Virus record (IMG/VR): IMGVR_UViG_3300031746_000094
Location: 1-33,483 of that record
DNA: 33,483 bases
Strand: one strand, 5' to 3'
Origin: a virus
The notes under the pieces were generated by a model, which had not been told where the DNA came from, searched no databases, and saw nothing but the letters and a program-made list of their open reading frames with translations. The position numbers and the translations under genes were made by a program. Positions 1,197 to 14,583 of the stretch are shown piece by piece (the first letter of the stretch is position 1; the number at the start of each line of letters is the position of its first letter).

Positions 1197-1673
1197 ATGC
1201 CTGAAGTAGCACAGCAACTCTCCAACGGCCTGATCCGCACCATCCGCATCCAAGAGGAGGAGCGGGTTGAGCGGCATGCAAAAGAGGCCAAGACCCTCAT
1301 CGCTGGGATGGATGAGGCCCGAAAGACCATCGAGCAAGAGACAGTTCGGTTAGCGGACCTCTCTCAGAGGCTACGCACCCATGCTCTACGTCAGAAGGAC
1401 GATATGACCCCGGGGTACCTAGCGTACTCCAACGCTTACATGCGGATCTGTGGGGCTTTGAATCAGGGCCTACGTCGGACTGCGTCGATGGGGCGGGTCT
1501 TGGATGCGGCCAAGGCCAACCAAGAGGAGTCCAAATTGCGGGAAGCCCGTGAGGAGGAGGGGCGTCGTATGCGGGCTCAGAACCGTGAAATTCAGAAGCT
1601 ATCGCTACCTACCAATGACGATTTCGACCTTGTCTATGGGGACGGCAGCGGAGAGGTGACCCATGCCGAGTGA
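1197..1673 (+). CDS. Helical charged hypothetical protein, likely head-associated
   Basis: The 158-residue product is rich in Glu, Arg, Lys and Ala and has long runs free of Pro and Gly, for example around residues 15-60 and 110-140. This predicts an extended helical or coiled-coil protein. The start ATG lies four bases after the previous stop, with a GGAG-like site at 1186-1189. The 3' end overlaps the portal start by 11 bases, so it is probably translated in series with the portal. No catalytic motif is visible and I do not recognise the family. A packaging or portal cofactor would fit the position, but nothing in the sequence proves it. Confidence 0.75.
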   Translation: MPEVAQQLSNGLIRTIRIQEEERVERHAKEAKTLIAGMDEARKTIEQETVRLADLSQRLRTHALRQKDDMTPGYLAYSNAYMRICGALNQGLRRTASMGRVLDAAKANQEESKLREAREEEGRRMRAQNREIQKLSLPTNDDFDLVYGDGSGEVTHAE

Positions 1674-4600
1674 TAGATTTACCAACAGCAATGGGGGCTA
1701 CCTCGTTAAGACGACCTCCAGGGTGCCTGCCCAGAGGCCCTACGTTGCTAACCATAACAATTCAGGTCTGACCGAGAAGGAGAAGATCGCTCGTCAGATC
1801 AAGAGGACGGCTGCGGGTAATGATCGCATGGCCGGAGCCTTTGGGGGCGGGGGTGGTGGGGGAGGCTTCGGTAACACCACTCTATCCAATCAGGGCAGCT
1901 TTTACAGTGCCCAACTCTCTACCGACTTTCTGGAATTACCTCAAAGCCTCCGTGAGAGGCGAGAGGTCTATCGGCACTTCTACAATGCTGATGAGATCGT
2001 AGGTCAGGCCATTGACCTGCATACCGAACTTCCTCTGTCGAAGCTTCGTCTGACGACTCCTAAGCCGACCACGATGCCTGACGGCTTCGATAGTCCAGAG
2101 GACTATGGGAAGTACATCCTCGACTTCTTCCAGGGGATGTGCAAGCGGATCAAGCTCTTTCAGCGGCTCATCACCGCAAGCCATCACTACTGGCTGGACG
2201 GGACTAGCTGCGTCTTTGCCGAGGACAGCTCGGTTGACGTTCCTCCGGATGTGGGACACCAGAGGGTACAGATCAAGCAGGCCGTACTACTGGAGGACGG
2301 GTCCGCTACCGAGACGGTCCAGGAATCTTGGCAAGAATCCCCTGACCGTGAACAGCAGGAGCTAACCCACTACGCTCAGAACTACCAAGGGTGGTCTCGG
2401 CTCATCATCCTACCTATCGACAAGGTGAAGATTTCGACCTTCTCCTTTACGGACAAGGTGAGGGTTGAGCTGATCCCCGCTGACAGGGACAGGGCGCTCA
2501 TCCAGAAGGCCCTCAACGGTGACCCCGTTGCCGAGGAGATGGTCGAGGAAATACCCGAGGAAGTTCGCCAGCACATGGTGGATGGTAAATTGATTCCCTT
2601 GGGCACGGATCCTGATGAGGGGTCTTTCGTGTACCTCCTGATGGGCCGCAAAGGTGCCGACCAAGAAGTAGGATCCAGCATCCTGGATAGGTGTCACCTT
2701 CCAGGCACATCTGTACTCGCCAAGCGTCAGGGCGAAATTTGTCAGGTGGCTATTGAAGACCTGGACCCTGACACGGACCTGGTGCTCAGCCACACCGGGG
2801 CATGGCGTGAGTTTGAGGTAGGTGTTCGAGCTATCTCAGAGGACATCTCTTTGCTTGACGTGGCTAAACTCCCTCCTATCGGATGCACCACAGACCACCG
2901 GTACCCTGTGCTGCGGGATGGGTCTGTCATCGAGATGTTAGCTGGAGCCATTCAGCCTGGGGACTACCTCCGTGTAGCTCAGGCTCCTCTCACAGAAACC
3001 CTACATAGTTTCGACTTGTCCGAGTTCATGCATGGGCATGAAGAGACGTACCGGGCTCGGAAGTCAGGGGGAGAGACTTCCCTGCACCTGGAGGTTGTAG
3101 ATAAGTCCAGGGATACCTTCACGGTCAGCTACAAGAAGGAACAGACGAATCCGAAGACGGTTGGTCGCAAGAAGGATGTGAACGCTATCCTGGAATGGGC
3201 TGCAACTCTTACCGAGCCCGTCAAGATGCGTTCCGCTGAGGTCTGTGAGCGTTTTGACCTGCATCCCGTTACCTTGAAGGAGATTCGCCATCAGCTCGTT
3301 GAGCTTGGCTACGGGGTGACTGTCACGAAGGGGAAGTCCATTGTATTCCCCCCAAACGTGAGTGGCCTTCTCGCACCAACCAGTGTGGATCACGTTAAGA
3401 GTTTCCCCCGTCAGCTTGACCTGACCGCAGACTTCGGGTACTTCCTGGGATATTGGCTCGGGGACGGCTGGATCTCCAAGCAGGCTGGCCTTGACTACGG
3501 GACTTTAGGGTTCTGTTATGGCCCTCACGAAGCCCTGTCTGTTCTTTCAATGGAGCAGAAGATCAAGCCTATGCTGAACAAGCTAGGGGTGGCTTGGTCA
3601 GAGAGTCCCTACGATTCAAGCGCAGACCTCATGAATACAGGTGCCCTCCTCTCTGGCTACCAGGACGCCCTGGTCCGCTGGATGGCTTCCAACTTTGGGC
3701 ATACTTGTGAGGATAAGCACCTGCCTGGGTGGATCTTCGATACCCCCAAAGAATTCTTGTTTGGAGTCCTCCGTGGCCTCGTAGACTCCGATGGTGACGT
3801 CACCACCAGGAAATGGGGCACATTAGGAGTACGGTTCAGCAACACAAACAGAATTCTTGCGGACCAGGTTTTCCTTCTAGGTTCATCCCTCGGCCTTCCG
3901 GTATCGAAGACCAAGCCCACCAAAGAACGCTGGGTCAAGCAGCCGCACGGAGGAATGTCCTGGGCAAAGCCCATGTACGCTGTCCACTTCTCTCATGGTC
4001 CCTCAGTCAAGGTATTCTTTGAGACGGGGTTCTTGGCCAAGCGCAAAGACCCAGAGGTCTGGAAGGACGGCCGTTCTGGTTCTCGCCACATCGAGCACGA
4101 GGGTAAACTCTACTACCGTGTTCAGGGCGTTGGGACAGCACGGCACACGGGGCCAGTGTACAGTCTCAATGTCCACGAGGATCACACGTTCTTCGCCGGA
4201 AACCTCAGTACTTTCAATTGCATACGCACTCTCCAGTATCGCGACAAGCTCCGGCAGGCTCAGACACAGATTGCTTCCAGGGCCATGACCCCGAAGCGTA
4301 TCGTGTGGGCTGAGGGCCTCTCCGACTCCGACGTGGAGATGCTACGGGAGCAGGTGGACCTGGCTCTTGTGGATCCTGACTACTCCATCGTGGCCAACTA
4401 TGAGGTCCACTGGGAGGAAATGGGGTCCAGGGACCGCCTCTTAGACCTCTCCTCGGAGTACGAACAGACGGAGCGAAGGCTCTTAACCGGCCTTGGGGTG
4501 ACGGAGAGCCTGATGTCAGGTGAGGCTCTCTACTCGGGTGACCGCCTCAAGCTGGAGGTTATCAACAACCGGTATCTACTGTACCGTGAGGTTCTTCAGG

Positions 4601-5013
4601 AATACGTGGAGGAGTACCTGTTCAAGCCGGTGGCCCGTCGAAAGGGGTTCATCGAGAAGAACAAATGGGGTGGAGAAGTGGTCCTCTATCCCAAGCTCAG
4701 CTTCACCCGGCTACCTCTCAGGGACAGCCAGGACACGTTCGACGCGATGTACAACCTCTACCAGAAGGGGTCGCTGTCCATCGACGTCATCTTGGAGATG
4801 CTCAACATTGACCCTAGTGACACCAGGCTCAAGATTGAGCGGGATGTTCTCACGGTCTCTGACGCAACCTTTAACGAGGTTCTCCGGTCCCTGTACTCCG
4901 AGGTTGGCCGTGTTCTGGCCGAGAAGACTGACGTCATGGAGAGGATTGCCAAGTACCTCAAGCTGGAACTGAAGCCCGAGGAAGGTGCTCCCGCCCCCGA
5001 GGGACGCTTCTAA
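1663..5013 (+). CDS. Portal protein precursor with in-frame intein
   Basis: The 1116-residue precursor is a portal protein of the T4 gp20-like or large-phage type, interrupted by a 509-residue intein. Removing the intein (codons 2692-4218) leaves 607 residues, 343 before and 264 after. The portal forms the dodecameric ring at one capsid vertex through which DNA is packaged. Support comes from its place directly after terL, an N-terminal region with a Gly-rich run and YRHFYNADEIVGQAIDLHT, and a C-terminal extein with LQYRDKLRQAQTQIASR and RLLTGLGVTESLMSG, the stem and crown region of this family. Ligation at the junctions would give LDR-CIRTLQYRDKL, which reads as a continuous portal helix. 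The start overlaps the upstream gene; no better start exists before the first portal-like residues. Splicing is inferred, not observed. Confidence 0.92.
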   Translation: MPSDRFTNSNGGYLVKTTSRVPAQRPYVANHNNSGLTEKEKIARQIKRTAAGNDRMAGAFGGGGGGGGFGNTTLSNQGSFYSAQLSTDFLELPQSLRERREVYRHFYNADEIVGQAIDLHTELPLSKLRLTTPKPTTMPDGFDSPEDYGKYILDFFQGMCKRIKLFQRLITASHHYWLDGTSCVFAEDSSVDVPPDVGHQRVQIKQAVLLEDGSATETVQESWQESPDREQQELTHYAQNYQGWSRLIILPIDKVKISTFSFTDKVRVELIPADRDRALIQKALNGDPVAEEMVEEIPEEVRQHMVDGKLIPLGTDPDEGSFVYLLMGRKGADQEVGSSILDRCHLPGTSVLAKRQGEICQVAIEDLDPDTDLVLSHTGAWREFEVGVRAISEDISLLDVAKLPPIGCTTDHRYPVLRDGSVIEMLAGAIQPGDYLRVAQAPLTETLHSFDLSEFMHGHEETYRARKSGGETSLHLEVVDKSRDTFTVSYKKEQTNPKTVGRKKDVNAILEWAATLTEPVKMRSAEVCERFDLHPVTLKEIRHQLVELGYGVTVTKGKSIVFPPNVSGLLAPTSVDHVKSFPRQLDLTADFGYFLGYWLGDGWISKQAGLDYGTLGFCYGPHEALSVLSMEQKIKPMLNKLGVAWSESPYDSSADLMNTGALLSGYQDALVRWMASNFGHTCEDKHLPGWIFDTPKEFLFGVLRGLVDSDGDVTTRKWGTLGVRFSNTNRILADQVFLLGSSLGLPVSKTKPTKERWVKQPHGGMSWAKPMYAVHFSHGPSVKVFFETGFLAKRKDPEVWKDGRSGSRHIEHEGKLYYRVQGVGTARHTGPVYSLNVHEDHTFFAGNLSTFNCIRTLQYRDKLRQAQTQIASRAMTPKRIVWAEGLSDSDVEMLREQVDLALVDPDYSIVANYEVHWEEMGSRDRLLDLSSEYEQTERRLLTGLGVTESLMSGEALYSGDRLKLEVINNRYLLYREVLQEYVEEYLFKPVARRKGFIEKNKWGGEVVLYPKLSFTRLPLRDSQDTFDAMYNLYQKGSLSIDVILEMLNIDPSDTRLKIERDVLTVSDATFNEVLRSLYSEVGRVLAEKTDVMERIAKYLKLELKPEEGAPAPEGRF
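2692..4218 (+). other. Intein with LAGLIDADG homing endonuclease inside the portal gene
   Basis: The insert begins at a Cys codon (2692-2694, motif CHLPGTSV) and ends at Asn (4216-4218), followed by Cys as the +1 extein residue. Block A is the CHLPGTSVLA start. Block B is TTDH at intein residues 66-69. Block F is VYSLNVHEDHTFFAG near the end. Two LAGLIDADG-type motifs form the endonuclease: LGYWLGDG with Asp258 and LRGLVDSDG with Asp365/Asp367. Between block B and the first endonuclease motif is a helix-turn-helix-like stretch (VCERFDLHPVTLKEIR) that could aid DNA binding. The penultimate residue is Phe (LSTFN-C) where most inteins have His; active inteins with other residues here are known. 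The element excises from the protein and can spread into intein-free portal alleles. Confidence 0.93.
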
Positions 5014-5080: not shown

Positions 5081-6025
5081 ATGGATCGTCAGTCCACAAA
5101 GACCCGAGAGGAGCTGGAACAAGAGGAGGCTGCCCGCCTTGTCCGTCCAGCCCCCAAGTACAAGCCCCCACGCCGTGACCTAAGGCGGGAGCGGGACGAT
5201 TCTGACCAGGAAGTGGACCCCGATGAGGCTGCCGACCGTAAAGATAGGTCGGACAACTACAAGGACGTAGGGGGTTCAACCGGGCCTAAAGGGCGGATTT
5301 CGCCGCTGGTCGAGTCTATCTTGGCCCGGTATGCCATTTCTTCTTATTCCACCCCCAGTTTGATGACCTCCGTGTCTGAGAAGGCAGCCGTTTATCATGG
5401 CGTGGCCCCCTACAATGGGACTCCTGGGTACGCCCATTGGACACAGCCCCATCAGCGGGACCTTGGGGATGGGGACTTAGAGGTCATCCTCAAGTCCGCC
5501 AAGGACTGGCTCAAGACGCCGGTTCTGTCGGTTCCTCTGGTGGATGCTAACCGGGATGTCCAGCTCCGGGCGGCTCTGGATTTGGCAATCTTTGATGGAC
5601 CCTACAACGGGGCTATCCAGCCCAACGTCTACAACAAGCTCCTGGCCAAGCTAGCTGGGGTGGATGCGGACGAGACACTTTTGACACAGCGTAAGGCAAC
5701 TGACTCAACGAAGGTGGCAATCCCCATGAAGGCATCGAACGAAATCCGCAAGTTGGCAGCCAAGTACGCTGCACAGGACGCTCCACTGGCATACGACCTC
5801 ATGGATCTGGCGTCCAAGGTGGCACAGGAAGAGGGCCAGGACGACGACCAGGGCCAGCAGAAGCAGGCTCAGGACGACCAGGAGGGCCAACAGGATCAAG
5901 GCCAGAAGCAGGCGAACAAGTACGCTGGCCTCCGTTCGGCAGTGATCAAGGCGGCCTCAGATAACCCCGCTGCACGGGCAGCATTCATCCCAGTTCTTCA
6001 GGCTATCAAGAGCCTGGACGTCTGA
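5081..6025 (+). CDS. Head-region protein with Gln/Asp-rich linker
   Basis: This 314-residue protein begins right after an in-frame TAA, so ATG 5081 is the first possible start, though without an obvious ribosome site. The N-terminus is very charged. The middle (about residues 80-240) is a mixed, probably globular region. Residues about 250-278 form a low-complexity Gln/Asp/Gly linker (QDQGQKQ type). The last 30 residues form a helix, LRSAVIKAASDNPAARAAF, resembling short C-terminal helices seen on several virion proteins of large environmental phages (recalled, not searched). The same Q/D-rich style recurs in the scaffold candidate at 8733-9935. A head-assembly role is inferred from position between portal and protease. 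Confidence 0.7.
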   Translation: MDRQSTKTREELEQEEAARLVRPAPKYKPPRRDLRRERDDSDQEVDPDEAADRKDRSDNYKDVGGSTGPKGRISPLVESILARYAISSYSTPSLMTSVSEKAAVYHGVAPYNGTPGYAHWTQPHQRDLGDGDLEVILKSAKDWLKTPVLSVPLVDANRDVQLRAALDLAIFDGPYNGAIQPNVYNKLLAKLAGVDADETLLTQRKATDSTKVAIPMKASNEIRKLAAKYAAQDAPLAYDLMDLASKVAQEEGQDDDQGQQKQAQDDQEGQQDQGQKQANKYAGLRSAVIKAASDNPAARAAFIPVLQAIKSLDV

Positions 6026-7219: not shown

Positions 7220-8689
7220 ATGGCCTTCCTCAAGTACGCCAACGCCGCTGTAGTCAAGCCCAACGTCTCGATGCCCGCCTGGGACGAGGTTCGTCATCGG
7301 GCTGTGCAGTTGGGTACCGCGTTCGACAAGAGGAAAGCTTCTCAGGTTGTGCTGAAGGAGTACGACCCGAACAAGTTTCTTTTGAGTCACTGCACTATCA
7401 TCGCCTCGGTTGATACCGAGAATGGTCCTGGGCAGCTAGGGAAGCACTTCGAGGGCGGCTTCACGGTCAACCGAAGGTACGCGGACTACTACATCACCCC
7501 CAACACTTCCATCTACGTCAACAACAACCAGGATAGCTGGGAGCGGAAGATGCTCTTATCCTGCTTCAAGACGTTCGTTGGCGGGGAGAACTACGTCGAG
7601 CACCTTCAGATCCCGGAGCTGAGCAAGGGCAAGATCATTGATGCCGCTGCCAGGGACATTGGGGATTCGATCTACGTAGACATCCTTGTCGCCACTGATC
7701 GGAAGCACAAGCCTCTCATTGATGCGATTGCTTCTGGGCAGCTTGCAACTCTCTCTATGGGTTGTTCCGTCAGTCACACGACTTGTTCCAAGTGCGGGAA
7801 CGTCTCAGAGGATGAAACCCAGATGTGTTCCCACATCAGGTATTCGAAGGGCAACACCTTCGTAGACTCCTTAGGAAAGACTCGAAAGATTGCCGAGCTG
7901 TGTGGTCACGTCACTGACCCAACCTCGGTTAAATTTATCGAGGCGTCTTGGGTGGCTAACCCAGCGTTCACTGGAGCAGTGCTTCGGAATATCCTCTCCC
8001 CGGCTGAGATTGCGGGGCTTACCCCCAAGATGCAGTTGGCTTTCTCACAGCCCACTCGGGTTTCAGATCCAAGCATGCTTCAGAAGGCTGCCCGTAGGAT
8101 CTCACAGGATCAAAACCCTACCCAGGGGGATGTTCCTGCTGAGGGTGAAGTCCCTCCCGACCCGATGGAAACGGCTGTCAGTGAGGTGGCCGATCAGATC
8201 CGTCAGAAGGCTATAGAAAAAGTTCGGGGGGAGATGAGCCCTCAGAAGGCCGCTCCTGCTCCAGGCCCTAGCGGGTCTGAGAACATGAATGACACCCTGA
8301 TCAAGTCGGCTTTAGCGAGAAATCCGGCACTTCGTAGGGCTGCGGTAACAATCGCCAAGAGCGTTAAAGATCCGCTTATAGCCCGGAGAATCATAGATGG
8401 TCTGATTTACCACCAACGCGGTGGTTGGCAGGCAGTCCAGGCTCAGAAGTTCTCCAGTAGGGAGATTCTGGCCGTCTCCAGGTACGTAGACCTCATGAAC
8501 AACTACAGTCCAAGAATGGCGGGGGACAACCGAGTCTACCGTACAGTCGTGGCTGTTGGGGGTGCGGCGGCCTATTCAGATGTAGAGAGTTACCTGTACG
8601 CCTGTCATAGGGTTATGGGCAGGGACATGACACAGGCCGAAAAAGAGTCTTTAGTCGTAAAAGGACGCCTGTTCGACCTCGGACAGTAA
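7220..8689 (+). CDS. Prohead maturation protease with embedded zinc knuckle and C-terminal extension
   Basis: The 489-residue protein looks like a serine prohead protease that digests scaffold and capsid tails during head maturation. The key pair is His57 in LLSHCTIIASVD and Ser179 in LATLSMGCSV. These match the His strand and the (L/I)SxG Ser strand of the herpesvirus-assemblin-like prohead protease fold used by T4 gp21 and HK97-type proteases. The EASWVANPAFTGAVLRNIL segment near residues 240-260 is typical of the C-terminal edge of that domain. Right after the Ser strand sits a Cys189-x2-Cys192-x10-Cys203-x-His205 knuckle, an insertion not found in the smaller proteases. Residues beyond about 290 add a Pro-rich linker and a helical domain (LIKSALARNPALRRAAVTIA). 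The place just before scaffold and capsid genes is the expected one. Third catalytic residue not assigned. Confidence 0.78.
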   Translation: MAFLKYANAAVVKPNVSMPAWDEVRHRAVQLGTAFDKRKASQVVLKEYDPNKFLLSHCTIIASVDTENGPGQLGKHFEGGFTVNRRYADYYITPNTSIYVNNNQDSWERKMLLSCFKTFVGGENYVEHLQIPELSKGKIIDAAARDIGDSIYVDILVATDRKHKPLIDAIASGQLATLSMGCSVSHTTCSKCGNVSEDETQMCSHIRYSKGNTFVDSLGKTRKIAELCGHVTDPTSVKFIEASWVANPAFTGAVLRNILSPAEIAGLTPKMQLAFSQPTRVSDPSMLQKAARRISQDQNPTQGDVPAEGEVPPDPMETAVSEVADQIRQKAIEKVRGEMSPQKAAPAPGPSGSENMNDTLIKSALARNPALRRAAVTIAKSVKDPLIARRIIDGLIYHQRGGWQAVQAQKFSSREILAVSRYVDLMNNYSPRMAGDNRVYRTVVAVGGAAAYSDVESYLYACHRVMGRDMTQAEKESLVVKGRLFDLGQ

Positions 8690-10628: not shown

Positions 10629-11507
10629 ATGAACCAGGTATCAAACGAAGTCAAGCAGCAGATCATCTCGGAGTACATCCGTACTGCCGCAGGCCGGGCC
10701 AAGCTCGCAGCCTCGATGATTCAGCCCCTCCGTCTCCGTCGGGACTACACGGCGGTTGGTCGTAAGACCTTCCTCGTGGAGCAGCTCCCGGACGGAGCCC
10801 TTCCGATCTACGACAAGGATCCGGAAGTCACGGCATTCGTGGTTGGCGAAGAGGGTGAAAACATCCTTGCCATCCAGAAGCCACGCCGGGTGATTTTCCC
10901 GCTGTTCGAGATTGCCTCGAACCCGGAAATCCCCCTCACCCAGATCAAGGAGCGTCGCTTCGACCTCATCGAGCGTAGCCAGGATCTCGCCAAGGCGCAG
11001 ATTCAGGCTGCGGAAGATGAGCGTGTGTTTGCGGTCCTGGACAGCATCGCTGTCTCGGGCTTCGACACGCTCCCCGGTCAGACCAACCCGGACATCGCCG
11101 TGGTTGCTCCAATCAGCCCAAGCGTCCTTGCGGATGCCTTCGCTGAGGTAGAGCGTCACGACCTGCGTGTTGCCCGCATCTACATGAATGCGGTTGACTA
11201 CGCTGACATCCGGAAGTTCGGCAGGGACATCCTGGACATCGAGTCCCAGGCCACCCTGCTCAAGACCGGTCTCCAGGCCACCCTCTGGGGTGCTCAGATC
11301 ATCACGAGCCGTCTGGTTCCAGCCGGATTCGTGTACGTCTGTGCAGAGCCGGAGAACTTCGGTCGGTTCCCGGTTCGTACCGAGCTGACGGTCCTCTCTG
11401 CGGATGACCCCAAGGCCCGGACGATTGGTTTTTCCTGCTTTGAAAATGTGGGTATCGGTGCGTTCAATCCGCGTGGATTGACCCGCCTCGTGATCACCCG
11501 CTTCTGA
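10629..11507 (+). CDS. Major capsid protein, HK97-like fold
   Basis: The 292-residue protein is the likely main shell subunit. It follows the decoration gene by 12 bases with a GAGGAG ribosome site at 10615-10620. The N-terminal helix (QQIISEYIRTAAGRAKLAAS) is followed by a long central helix with RRFDLIERSQDLAKAQIQAA, matching the spine helix of HK97-type capsids. ARIYMNAVDYADIRKFGRD and LWGAQIITSRLVPAGFVYV match the A-domain and the usual late 'ix S xxvp g' strand. It ends with NPRGLTRLVITRF. The coding sequence uses mostly C-ending codons, consistent with high expression, and a strong terminator follows. No long cleavable N-terminal delta domain is evident, so the separate scaffold candidate upstream makes sense. 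Confidence 0.85.
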   Translation: MNQVSNEVKQQIISEYIRTAAGRAKLAASMIQPLRLRRDYTAVGRKTFLVEQLPDGALPIYDKDPEVTAFVVGEEGENILAIQKPRRVIFPLFEIASNPEIPLTQIKERRFDLIERSQDLAKAQIQAAEDERVFAVLDSIAVSGFDTLPGQTNPDIAVVAPISPSVLADAFAEVERHDLRVARIYMNAVDYADIRKFGRDILDIESQATLLKTGLQATLWGAQIITSRLVPAGFVYVCAEPENFGRFPVRTELTVLSADDPKARTIGFSCFENVGIGAFNPRGLTRLVITRF

Positions 11508-11530
11508 TAACTGCTGAGTTATCGGGCACT

Positions 11531-11574
11531 TTGAGCCCCCAGAGCCAAAAGGTTCTGGGGGCTCAAGTGTTTTT
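11531..11574 (+). terminator. Strong intrinsic terminator after the major capsid gene
   Basis: A 16-bp stem pairs 11531-11546 (TTGAGCCCCCAGAGCC) with 11551-11566 around an AAAA loop, with one G-T wobble. CAC/GTG extends it beyond a bulged T, and five T residues follow at 11570-11574. This is a textbook Rho-independent terminator on the + strand. It closes the head transcription unit and separates it from the nuclease-methyltransferase gene. Confidence 0.95.
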
Positions 11575-11585
11575 ACAACCCCTGG

Positions 11586-11614
11586 TTGACCTTCTCGAAA
11601 CGCGAGAGTACGAT
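11586..11614 (+). promoter_or_regulatory. Candidate sigma-70-type promoter with internal palindrome, possibly leaderless
   Basis: TTGACC (11586-11591) and TACGAT (11609-11614) are 17 bases apart, four to five matches each to the sigma-70 boxes. Transcription would begin near 11620-11622, which is the GTG start of the next gene, so the mRNA would be leaderless. The spacer holds a palindrome, TCTCG-AAACG-CGAGA (11593-11607), which could be a repressor or operator site or a small hairpin. No Shine-Dalgarno sequence precedes the GTG, which agrees with leaderless use. Promoter calls by eye are uncertain. Confidence 0.4.
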
Positions 11615-11619
11615 TCTCC

Positions 11620-13908
11620 GTGCCCTTGGAGAAGTGTTGCGGCTACCGCTTGTGTGGCAAGACTTTCCTTGATGCCTCTCTGAAGCATTCCCAGAAGTTC
11701 TGCTGTCCTGAGCATGGCCGAAGGGAGAAGGCTTTCAGGACGGGTAAAGCCAAGGACGAGAGCTACTTCAGAGCTGAGAAGACGACGGGATGGAGAATCT
11801 GCCACCAGTGCCGACTGAAGTTCTTGAGGGGGCCTGGGAGTAAGACTATCCGGTGTCCCTCTTGTCTGTCCTCGAATAGGGACAAGTCTTGTCGAGCTTG
11901 TGAGGGATCCTACCGAGACGAGTCGTTGAAGAACACTCAGAGGTACTGCCCGGCCTGTCAGTCCAAGACTCCCCAAAGACCAACGGTATCTAACAGAACC
12001 CAATCAGCTCGTCGATCTCAGGTGAGGTCCGGTCAAGGGAGACTTGACTATCTGAGCACGATGACACGGTTCACCCAAACGTGGTGGGGCAGAGTGGGGG
12101 AATTGTTGTTCCTTACCCTCTACCCTGATGCCTCGGATGCTATCTGTGAGTACGGGAATCGGAGCCCCTTCGATGCCCAACACAGGACACTTGGAAGGGT
12201 CAGTGTCAAAACTACCCACACCAAGCAGAGTAAGCGTCAGAAAGCCCTTTGGAACTTTCAGCTAGGGGACTCCTCCCATAGTGACTCCACATTCCTTGTG
12301 GGCTTCTCCGAGGACTTCTTGCATGTCGAACGTGCGTGGCTGTTCCCGTCAAAGGACTTGCCTAGAAGTACCAGGGTACTGTGCCCAGGGAGTTCCGAGT
12401 ACAAGGCTCAAGGGGAGATTCCAGCAGAGCAAGTAGCCGTCCTCGAACGTCAGCTCCAGGTCATCCTGAGTGCTCCTGAAGTCCCCTCTGGGGAGGCTGA
12501 GGCCAGAGTGGAGTACGACAGGATCACTCTTGGGAACATCGGTGAGGCCATCTATCAGATTCTCTACCCCACGTCTCTGCATGTGGCTAAGACAGACCCG
12601 TTGTTTCCTTGGGACTTCACAGATTCAGACGGAAGTCGCGTCAATGTCAGGGTACGTCGCAAAGGTCCACGGGACAGGTGGACGTTCTTTCGCTCCCAAT
12701 CCAAAGAGACGGACGCCTACTTTTTCATCGGCCTTGGAGACGACTCTAGAGCAGTTGAAGTAGCCCTGAGGGTTCCAGCGTCCGAAATGCCACCTCATGG
12801 ATTCTCCTTTAGGGAAGGCGGGAGTAAATGGAGCTTGTTCAAGGTGGGCATCGGGGACCGTAGGATGGTTTCCGAATTCGTTCAACTACCTGACCTGGAA
12901 GCCACTCATATCCAGATCACGTCTTTGACTCCGGCCACCAAGAACAACCTGTCCCAAGAGGGAGCTGTGGGGCTACTTCATAGGGCCTTTGAGTACCACC
13001 GTACTCTAGGATTCCCATTCCCGGCACCCCCTTCAGACAAACGACTGGCTTCTTGGGTGGACGGTGTACGTAGGTACTCAGCGCAAGGCAAGGACTTGCC
13101 AGTGAATAATGACGTTCTAGGGCTCTGCTCCGCTTTCATGCCTCACCGCTTTAGTGCTCGGAATGCGGATGCTGACTTCTCAGCCCTCACCGCATTCCAT
13201 GATGATGTTCGCTTGAACAGGGCTCTTGAGTTTTGCCTTGGTAGTGGTCGGTTGACCCGACCAGCTCTACGGTCTGCCCTCACTTCTCTGAATCGTACTC
13301 CTACGCAATTTAGGCCAGCGGTAGCCAAAGCTCTGGTGGACAGCTATGCTCCTTCCGGGGGAGTTGTCTTTGACCCTTGTGCTGGATGGGGTGGTCGTTT
13401 GGCTGGAACCCTGATAGCTGGGAGGAAGTACCTCGGTGTAGAGCCTCTCAAGCTCACAGCAGACGCCCTGTGGAAACTTGGTATGCGGCTGTGTGAACAC
13501 CTACATCTTGATAGGGATTACGTCCGAATACTGGAGTCTCCAATTCAAGCTGTCCCCACCACGTTCTTTGCTGACTTTGCTTTGACCTCCCCTCCGTACT
13601 GGACCAAAGAGATTTACGATGGGCAGAGGAGTTCGATTACTGTAGACTCTTGGGTGACCGACTTCCTACAGCCCATGTTCTTGAAGGTGGGCGCAATCCT
13701 CCGGCCGGGGGCAGCGTTTGCCGTGAACGTAGTAGACGTCAAGGATGGGCGGAAGCTGATTCCCCTCGAACAGCTAGCGGTTGAGACCGCCGAATCCACG
13801 GGTTTTAGACTGGAAGGTTCTTGGAGGATGCTGAAGGGCTCTTTTGGAAGCCAGACAGCCGGAAGGTTTGAACCTGTTTTCGTGTTCCGTAAAGCCAAGC
13901 CGGTGTAG
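11620..13908 (+). CDS. Zinc-knuckle / tandem PD-(D/E)XK-like nuclease / amino-methyltransferase fusion
   Basis: This 762-residue protein joins three parts. Residues 1-115 hold three Cys-rich zinc knuckles: C6/C12-C28-H32, C61-x2-C64 with C79-x2-C82, and C91-x2-C94 with C110-x2-C113. Residues about 155-250 and 303-395 are two copies of one fold, each starting GxxGE...LYP. Copy 1 has Glu161, Asp185 and Lys197 (VSVK), a PD-(D/E)XK-like active site. Copy 2 aligns with the same spacing (Glu309, Asp332) but has Arg344 in place of the Lys. Residues about 560-760 form an amino-methyltransferase with motif I FDPCAGWGGR (584-593) and motif IV TSPPY (656-660), as in N4-cytosine or N6-adenine enzymes. 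GTG 11620 is needed to include the first knuckle. It may be a single-chain restriction-modification enzyme or a DNA-marking nuclease. The domain calls are firm for the methyltransferase and moderate for the nucleases. Confidence 0.82.
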   Translation: MPLEKCCGYRLCGKTFLDASLKHSQKFCCPEHGRREKAFRTGKAKDESYFRAEKTTGWRICHQCRLKFLRGPGSKTIRCPSCLSSNRDKSCRACEGSYRDESLKNTQRYCPACQSKTPQRPTVSNRTQSARRSQVRSGQGRLDYLSTMTRFTQTWWGRVGELLFLTLYPDASDAICEYGNRSPFDAQHRTLGRVSVKTTHTKQSKRQKALWNFQLGDSSHSDSTFLVGFSEDFLHVERAWLFPSKDLPRSTRVLCPGSSEYKAQGEIPAEQVAVLERQLQVILSAPEVPSGEAEARVEYDRITLGNIGEAIYQILYPTSLHVAKTDPLFPWDFTDSDGSRVNVRVRRKGPRDRWTFFRSQSKETDAYFFIGLGDDSRAVEVALRVPASEMPPHGFSFREGGSKWSLFKVGIGDRRMVSEFVQLPDLEATHIQITSLTPATKNNLSQEGAVGLLHRAFEYHRTLGFPFPAPPSDKRLASWVDGVRRYSAQGKDLPVNNDVLGLCSAFMPHRFSARNADADFSALTAFHDDVRLNRALEFCLGSGRLTRPALRSALTSLNRTPTQFRPAVAKALVDSYAPSGGVVFDPCAGWGGRLAGTLIAGRKYLGVEPLKLTADALWKLGMRLCEHLHLDRDYVRILESPIQAVPTTFFADFALTSPPYWTKEIYDGQRSSITVDSWVTDFLQPMFLKVGAILRPGAAFAVNVVDVKDGRKLIPLEQLAVETAESTGFRLEGSWRMLKGSFGSQTAGRFEPVFVFRKAKPV

Positions 13909-13917
13909 CTGTCCAGC

Positions 13918-14583
13918 ATGGACCCCCAATGGCCTTCCTGGAAGAAGGCCCTCACTGATGAGTTCAAGAAGCCGTACTGGCACCAGCTCACGGAGTTCGT
14001 GGCTGAGGAGTACAAGACCAAGGTCATCTTCCCTCCGGCCAGGGACATGTTCTTTGCCCTCAAGGCAACGCCTTTCGAGGACACCAACGTCCTGATCCTG
14101 GGTCAGGATCCGTATCACAACGCTGACCAGGCTCATGGGTTAGCCTTCTCGGTCCAGCATGGGATGAAGCCTCCCCCAAGCCTGGTCAACATCTTCAAGG
14201 AGCTGACCACGGATCTAGGTTGTGAGAGGCCCGGGGACGCTTGCCTGATTCGATGGGCTGAACAGGGAGTCTTACTCCTGAACACGGTCCTGACGGTCAG
14301 GTCACACGCTCCAGGCTCTCACAAGGGCAAGGGATGGGAGACCTTCACGGATGCCATTATCCGGGCTCTGAGTGCCCGTGAGAGGCCCGTGGTGTTCGTC
14401 CTCTGGGGTAAGCAGGCTCGGGACAAGAAGGCCCTGATTGACGAGACTAGGCACACGATCATCGAGTCCTCCCACCCGAGCCCCCTGACCGTCAACGATG
14501 GATTCCTCGGGTCCCGGCCGTTCTCCAGGATCAATGAGGCCCTTGTGGAGTACGGTCAGAAACCAATTGACTGGCAGCTATGA
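13918..14583 (+). CDS. ung: Uracil-DNA glycosylase, family 1
   Basis: The 221-residue enzyme removes uracil from DNA, leaving abasic sites for base-excision repair. All family 1 hallmarks are present: GQDPYH at residues 62-67 with catalytic Asp64, GLAFSV with the base-stacking Phe77, LLLNTVLTV with the uracil-reading Asn122, VVFVLWG near 158-164, and the HPSPL loop with His186. Numbering and length are close to E. coli Ung. The start ATG lies nine bases after the preceding stop, so it is probably co-transcribed with the nuclease-methyltransferase gene. A phage with uracil-containing DNA would not be expected to carry it, so the genome most likely contains ordinary thymine. It may limit uracil damage in phage DNA or attack uracil-bearing rivals; the latter is speculation. 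Confidence 0.97.
   Translation: MDPQWPSWKKALTDEFKKPYWHQLTEFVAEEYKTKVIFPPARDMFFALKATPFEDTNVLILGQDPYHNADQAHGLAFSVQHGMKPPPSLVNIFKELTTDLGCERPGDACLIRWAEQGVLLLNTVLTVRSHAPGSHKGKGWETFTDAIIRALSARERPVVFVLWGKQARDKKALIDETRHTIIESSHPSPLTVNDGFLGSRPFSRINEALVEYGQKPIDWQL

Follow-up and report, generated by a model that had tools for sequence, protein, structure and literature searches.

The gene that directly follows the major capsid protein gene in this phage contig probably encodes a free-standing homing endonuclease, possibly a nickase, that is fused to a DNA methyltransferase. The virus contig is 33,483 bases long and is here called the window; L002 is a near-identical fragment of it from a second assembly. 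The gene product consists of zinc modules, two copies of a PD-(D/E)XK nuclease, a linker and a methyltransferase (Table 1). This architecture, and a fixed slot in which nucleases and methyltransferases are exchanged, appear to be new, while the free-standing homing endonuclease as a kind is already known. No description of a LAGLIDADG-methyltransferase or tandem PD-(D/E)XK-methyltransferase homing enzyme was found in the literature covered, a weak absence since the coverage is short of most subscription papers, and the nearest published case, from Lactobacillales, is a fusion of GIY-YIG nucleases with a methyltransferase (PMC1564403).

Table 1. Features of the capsid gene, the slot behind it and the slot protein in the window.
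Feature	Position	Strand	Remarks
Major capsid protein gene, directly upstream of slot	10629..11507	+	phrog_2522 major head protein, E 1e-52
17-bp terminator hairpin and T tract, left slot edge	11530..11567	+	between capsid gene and ORF
ORF: zinc modules, PD-(D/E)XK x2, helical linker, DNA methyltransferase	11620..13908	+	762 aa, GTG start; AlphaFold2 pLDDT 81
Zinc module A, residues ~7-50	11638..11769	+	weak zf-CGNR match
Zinc modules B and C, residues 58-115	11791..11964	+	C61-C64-C79-C82; C91-C94-C110-C113; Cys invariant or nearly so
PD-(D/E)XK copy 1, residues ~150-262	12067..12405	+	Glu161, Asp185, Ser195, Lys197
PD-(D/E)XK copy 2, residues ~298-420	12511..12879	+	Glu309, Asp332, Asn342, Arg344
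Mostly helical linker, nuclease pair to methyltransferase, residues ~425-558	12892..13293	+	full-length model
DNA methyltransferase core, residues ~559-762	13294..13905	+	motif X/I FRPAVAKALVDSYAPSGGVVFDPCAGWGGR, motif IV TSPPY; Pfam N6_N4_Mtase
Uracil-DNA glycosylase-like gene, downstream of ORF	13918..14583	+	in L034; not in L033, L036

A duplicated nuclease joined to a methyltransferase

The reading frame of 762 codons, and the residues Glu161, Asp185, Ser195, Lys197, Glu309, Asp332 and Arg344, all lie where an earlier note on this DNA had placed them. The same note had described three zinc knuckles. Three Cys4-like modules are present, but their spacing matches a zinc ribbon better than a zinc knuckle. 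Module A, the first (residues ~7-32), is missing in L004, L006, L007 and L008; module B is invariant among the relatives and module C nearly so. Module A is also found in the HTH-LAGLIDADG-methyltransferase proteins that occupy the slot in other phages, at the C-terminal end there and at the N-terminal end in the window protein. The LAGLIDADG domain itself, present in these alternative occupants, was absent from the window protein in a Pfam search.

The resemblance between the two nuclease copies reflects a true internal duplication. With hhalign they align over 101 columns (probability 99.3%, E 2e-20), and in profile searches within this protein copy 1 finds copy 2 at iE 6e-9 and copy 2 finds copy 1 at 3e-8. 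We modelled the pair (residues 141-407) with AlphaFold2 from an alignment of seven homologues, and the model (mean pLDDT 84, pTM 0.55) shows the typical PD-(D/E)XK alpha-beta core. Among solved structures Foldseek placed single-chain PvuII first, then NhoI, Eco15I, I-Ssp6803I and PvuII, and the 14 top matches were all PD-(D/E)XK enzymes (best E 3e-5). Model and structure search thus agree on the proposed fold for both copies, and an unrelated fold did not come up. The superposition of the pair on single-chain PvuII is poor, with an rmsd of 14 Å, which together with the pTM of 0.55 means that the mutual orientation of the copies is not fixed by the model. On the sequence level the nuclease has no relatives in Pfam, in solved structures or in sequenced phages. 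In divergent members copy 2 has matches to PHROG families 13389 and 28936, and a search of 31 records gave no genes of these two families beyond those already known.

The active-site residues were surveyed in 13 proteins, of which the window protein and those of L003, L004, L006, L007, L008, L009, L024 and L031 make up the window's group, and one, L029, is truncated before motif III of copy 2. The proposed catalytic residues were retained, and relatives devoid of them were not encountered: the positions of Glu161, Asp185, Glu309 and Asp332 are invariant over all 13, Lys197 is found in 11 of 13, and Arg344 in each of the nine intact members of the close group. Motif III varies more. In the window's group copy 1 has (S/N/A)-V-K and copy 2 has N-V-R, in L039 there is a Lys in both copies (D-V-K and N-V-K), and in L102 and L081 the pattern is mirrored, with E/D-V-R in copy 1 and N/D-V-K in copy 2. 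The change from Lys to Arg is thus seen in copy 2 of the window protein and eight relatives, in copy 1 of two others and in neither copy of one. Of the proteins that are readable over both copies, none has lost the Lys from both. A Lys in copy 2 is confined to L039, L081 and L102, and the window's copy 2, with Asn342 and Arg344, does not hold the full catalytic set. The description of the nuclease as half-degenerate therefore fits the window protein, with its Arg in copy 2, but is no fixed property of the family, and the mirrored pattern implies that either copy may bear the Lys. Keeping the Lys in one copy would be expected if a single active site suffices, as in a nickase, and the copy with Arg may still be active. 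A precedent for nickases derived from single-chain enzymes with two sites is cited in PMC11997821. The second acidic residue, reported as missing at Ser195, is indeed replaced by Ser, Asn or Ala throughout the close group, but the three divergent relatives L039, L081 and L102 have Asp or Glu at this position, and the classic (D/E)-x-(K/R) form therefore exists in the family.

The methyltransferase is located in the same chain, as had been claimed. It matches Pfam PF01555 (N6_N4_Mtase) in two stretches in permuted order, with 31.3 bits against a curated cut-off of 26.7 (E 2.5e-7), and PHROG methyltransferases match as well. The motif order is X-I-IV, with DPCAGWGG as motif I and a motif IV, TSPPY, that is invariant in the close group. 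By its motifs and profile score the enzyme is of the N6/N4 amino type, and the TSPPY class suggests a probable specificity for N4-cytosine. The full-length AlphaFold2 model (pLDDT 81, pTM 0.61) gave Foldseek matches to Rossmann methyltransferases, TrmN and Trm11 among them, and further down the list to methyltransferase subunits of type I and type IIG. Neither Pfam nor this model shows a recognition domain after the methyltransferase, the core of which ends the chain at residue 762. Methyltransferase domains of the window's group form one clade (99/99) in a phylogenetic tree, and those of the HTH-LAGLIDADG-methyltransferase-zinc proteins another (100/99). The methyltransferase of L039 falls within the LAGLIDADG-methyltransferase clade (100/99), and the nuclease pair has therefore been joined to a methyltransferase at least twice, independently. 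In L102 and L081 the pair has no methyltransferase in the same chain.

A changing slot behind a conserved capsid gene

The capsid protein is 92-100% identical among the best 80 of 450 matching contigs, some of which are longer than 500 kb, and the identity is 83% for LR745208.1, an uncultured phage of 485 kb; the phages concerned are of the huge-phage type. At fourfold sites the capsid genes of the window and the other phages are merely 33-63% identical, the near-identical L002 aside, which implies that the conservation is due to selection on the protein. The divergence at these sites also gives no sign that the capsid gene was recently co-converted in a homing event. Stable hairpins follow the capsid gene in most relatives. 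A promoter dedicated to the slot gene was looked for and discarded, because the candidate in the window (TTGACC-17-TACGAT at 11586-11614) is within chance expectation, as are most other candidates.

All loci that carry the nuclease pair have it adjoining the capsid gene, directly downstream. To describe the slot itself we used loci fetched by the capsid query alone, which after removal of duplicates and short ends left 54 distinct slots. Genes for LAGLIDADG, LAGLIDADG-methyltransferase or nuclease-pair proteins were found in 25 of them and none of the searched families in 29. Thirteen of the occupied slots hold LAGLIDADG alone, nine hold LAGLIDADG-methyltransferase and three hold the nuclease pair, which is joined to the methyltransferase in L039, stands alone in L102 and is followed by a separate LAGLIDADG-methyltransferase gene in L081. 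Profiles of the slot genes found no match in the remainder of the ~0.9 Mb scanned, where inteins of other lineages go uncounted because slot proteins were the source of the LAGLIDADG profile. Pfam recognised LAGLIDADG_2 in 27 and a methyltransferase in 22 of the 63 proteins encoded first downstream of the capsid gene; here the loci retrieved with the enzyme itself are counted along with those from the capsid query. In L032, L033, L057 and L107 the LAGLIDADG motifs (GDG...DDG) can be seen to be intact.

The content of the slot differs even between near relatives. The four phages nearest to the window have capsid proteins that are 99-100% identical to that of the window, and in the slot two of them carry LAGLIDADG (L033 and L036), one LAGLIDADG-methyltransferase (L032) and one no endonuclease (L034). 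The DNA alignment of the window with these four ends at 11505-11509 and resumes at 13890 in L034 or at 14572-14601 in L032, L033 and L036. Similarly, the capsid genes of L087 and L089 are 97.7% identical on the nucleotide level, and the two phages differ by ~2.56 kb that hold a LAGLIDADG-methyltransferase gene; as the downstream gene of L089 seems to be shortened, this may be a loss in L089 and not a gain in L087. Presence or absence at one site among near relatives, and a position beside a conserved essential gene, are both as seen for free-standing phage homing endonucleases. Nuclease genes of phages are known to cluster near essential genes, that of the capsid included (PMC10448857). One address with at least four kinds of occupants in many phages makes the slot a natural experiment.

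Some other genes were observed in or at the slot. The uracil-DNA glycosylase-like gene in the window is itself present or missing there among near relatives. In L117 (LR745208.1, 7080-10769) the slot protein has 1229 residues and combines two LAGLIDADG regions with a methyltransferase and zinc modules. Its first LAGLIDADG region is without the acidic residues (GNG, LDRGG), which makes it a second case of an intact and a degenerate nuclease in one chain. The slot of L055 is occupied by a small Vsr-like protein (7771-8121, E 5e-6), a fold that is used by some phage homing endonucleases too. The gene after the capsid gene of Bacillus phage G (gp28; L116, 4970-5902) has weak matches to a zinc finger (E 0.003) and to T7 endonuclease I (E 0.01), and is possibly another slot nuclease.

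Probable homing and its alternatives

Intronless homing accounts for the observations most economically. Together, the zinc modules and the two nuclease copies would probably bind a putative site at the 3' end of the capsid gene or just beyond it. The tandem PD-(D/E)XK domains would then act as a built-in pseudo-dimer, in which copy 1 would be the fully equipped site and copy 2 has Arg for Lys, and the most likely outcome would be that one strand is nicked, or that the second strand is cut slowly. Repair of the capsid locus of a co-infecting phage would copy the gene into the slot, while the methyltransferase probably modifies the same or an overlapping site and so would spare the carrier's own capsid locus. 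Free-standing homing genes that lie beside their target must avoid cutting their own genome. As the gene inserts beside and not within its target, the carrier's target would stay intact, and since the capsid protein is so constrained, escape by a change of the site would be limited; a fused methyltransferase would thus protect the carrier and be a clean answer to the problem. The slots with LAGLIDADG only imply that methylation is not the sole solution to self-protection. Methyltransferase-protected homing, if true, would unite homing endonucleases and restriction-modification in a single protein.

From its position the capsid gene is a plausible target of the nuclease pair. For the LAGLIDADG occupants it is a plausible homing target, as LAGLIDADG genes, in one case with a group I intron, are found in split capsid genes. 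In the distant L154 (2596-8101) the capsid gene is split and contains two LAGLIDADG genes as well as a group I intron (Rfam E 1e-17), and an HTH-LAGLIDADG-methyltransferase gene follows directly after it on the opposite strand; LAGLIDADG genes also lie among pieces of the capsid gene in L139 and L188. A LAGLIDADG query showed that this family is widespread and mostly found outside the slot, free-standing or inside long ORFs, and that the LAGLIDADG-methyltransferase fusions adjoin the capsid gene with L179 as the sole exception. Sliding windows with label permutation gave no signature of a target or of self-protection in the capsid sequences for slots with LAGLIDADG only or LAGLIDADG-methyltransferase, and the one signal, for slots with the nuclease pair, reflects their more divergent capsid genes. 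A recognition site of the enzyme was not found.

The protein could also mainly serve to destroy the capsid loci of co-infecting relatives, with the methyltransferase as a shield for the carrier and mobility as a secondary effect. We regard this as possible but rather unlikely. It agrees with the position beside a conserved essential gene and with a precedent from jumbo phages, where a homing endonuclease acts by nicking and harms the co-infecting phage: Phi-PA3 gp210, an HNH intron endonuclease, nicks a gene of PhiKZ, and nicking is enough for interference (PMC11620839). That protein is likewise a jumbo-phage endonuclease beside an essential gene, but it has the HNH fold, is intron-borne and lacks a methyltransferase. 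By sequence, interference is inseparable from homing, and the gene does come and go, as its turnover between closely related phages shows.

Clearly less probable is a restriction-modification cargo of the type IIG kind, a frame implied in the earlier note, in which a single chain would methylate the carrier genome and cut, at a short and frequent site, unmethylated DNA from the host or from superinfecting phages. Type IIG enzymes such as BpuSI (3s1s), which is at rank 16 of the Foldseek matches of the whole model, likewise have a nuclease, a helical part and a methyltransferase in one polypeptide, and the nearest nuclease folds, those of NhoI, Eco15I and PvuII, are restriction enzymes. The window protein differs in its tandem nuclease, and in having neither a C-terminal recognition domain nor type IIG Pfam domains such as those of the Eco57I/TaqI type. 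We rejected membership of type IIG because the recognition domain is absent and motif IV is TSPPY instead of (N/D)PPY, even though the X-I-IV order fits the gamma class. Furthermore, neither a single fixed position behind the capsid gene nor the exchange with LAGLIDADG endonucleases would be expected of restriction cargo, and forms without methyltransferase exist (L102). The slot setting implies that the gene is of the homing type and does not encode an ordinary restriction enzyme. Least probable of all is a mere cargo slot, where insertions are tolerated after the strong capsid terminator and arrive by ordinary recombination, with methylation directed against host restriction and the nuclease pair a DNA-binding remnant; the glycosylase and unknown ORFs that use the slot too, the slots without the searched families and the second catalytic acid missing in copy 1 agree with it, but the occupants of the slot show a strong bias towards endonucleases, no variation is seen at Glu161 and Asp185, a Lys persists wherever both copies are readable, and LAGLIDADG motifs are intact in several occupants.

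I-Ssp6803I (PDB 2ost; Foldseek E 2e-3, probability 0.99) is of the right subtype, a homing enzyme with the PD-(D/E)XK fold. It is a single-domain, intron-encoded protein assembled from separate subunits; the window protein has two copies per chain, zinc modules and a methyltransferase, and does not match it on the sequence level. The free-standing phage LAGLIDADG homing endonucleases (PF03161) occupy the same slot at the same capsid gene, and some share the zinc module or the kind of methyltransferase, but their nuclease fold is unrelated and their motif is lacking in the window protein. The closest folds to the nuclease pair are PvuII, the engineered single-chain PvuII (3ksk) and NhoI and Eco15I of the BisI family. 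In single-chain PvuII this tandem arrangement was made artificially, the orientation of the copies in the window protein not being established. All of these are restriction enzymes that, unlike the window protein, have no methyltransferase in the chain. Tentatively, and with some reservation, we suggest a new class of selfish enzymes, with homing endonuclease and methyltransferase in a single chain. Their nuclease module, tandem PD-(D/E)XK or LAGLIDADG, would be exchangeable and their address fixed after the capsid gene, methylation would replace the interruption of the target as a means of self-protection, and in the tandem version reciprocal loss of Lys would give natural strand-specific nickases. 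The reciprocal change between Lys and Arg would allow a natural tandem PD-(D/E)XK protein to be tested as a nickase, and the strand cut by each copy to be identified.

Other interrupted genes

Interrupted genes were also seen away from the slot. The homologue of the window gene at 5081-6025 is split by ~1.9 kb in L033 (~540-2411), and in the same way in L034, between residues 66 and 80. A 330-aa ORF with no function assigned sits in this split, where a search for a group I intron was negative. The window itself encodes a portal protein of 1116 aa (1663-5013) with an apparent intein (LAGLIDADG_3 and intein splicing domain) at residues ~397-852, which is missing in several relatives. In L039 (3449-4420) an intein-like ORF interrupts the homologue of the prohead protease, and those of L102 and L106 are likewise split, which suggests an abundance of homing elements in the head gene cluster.
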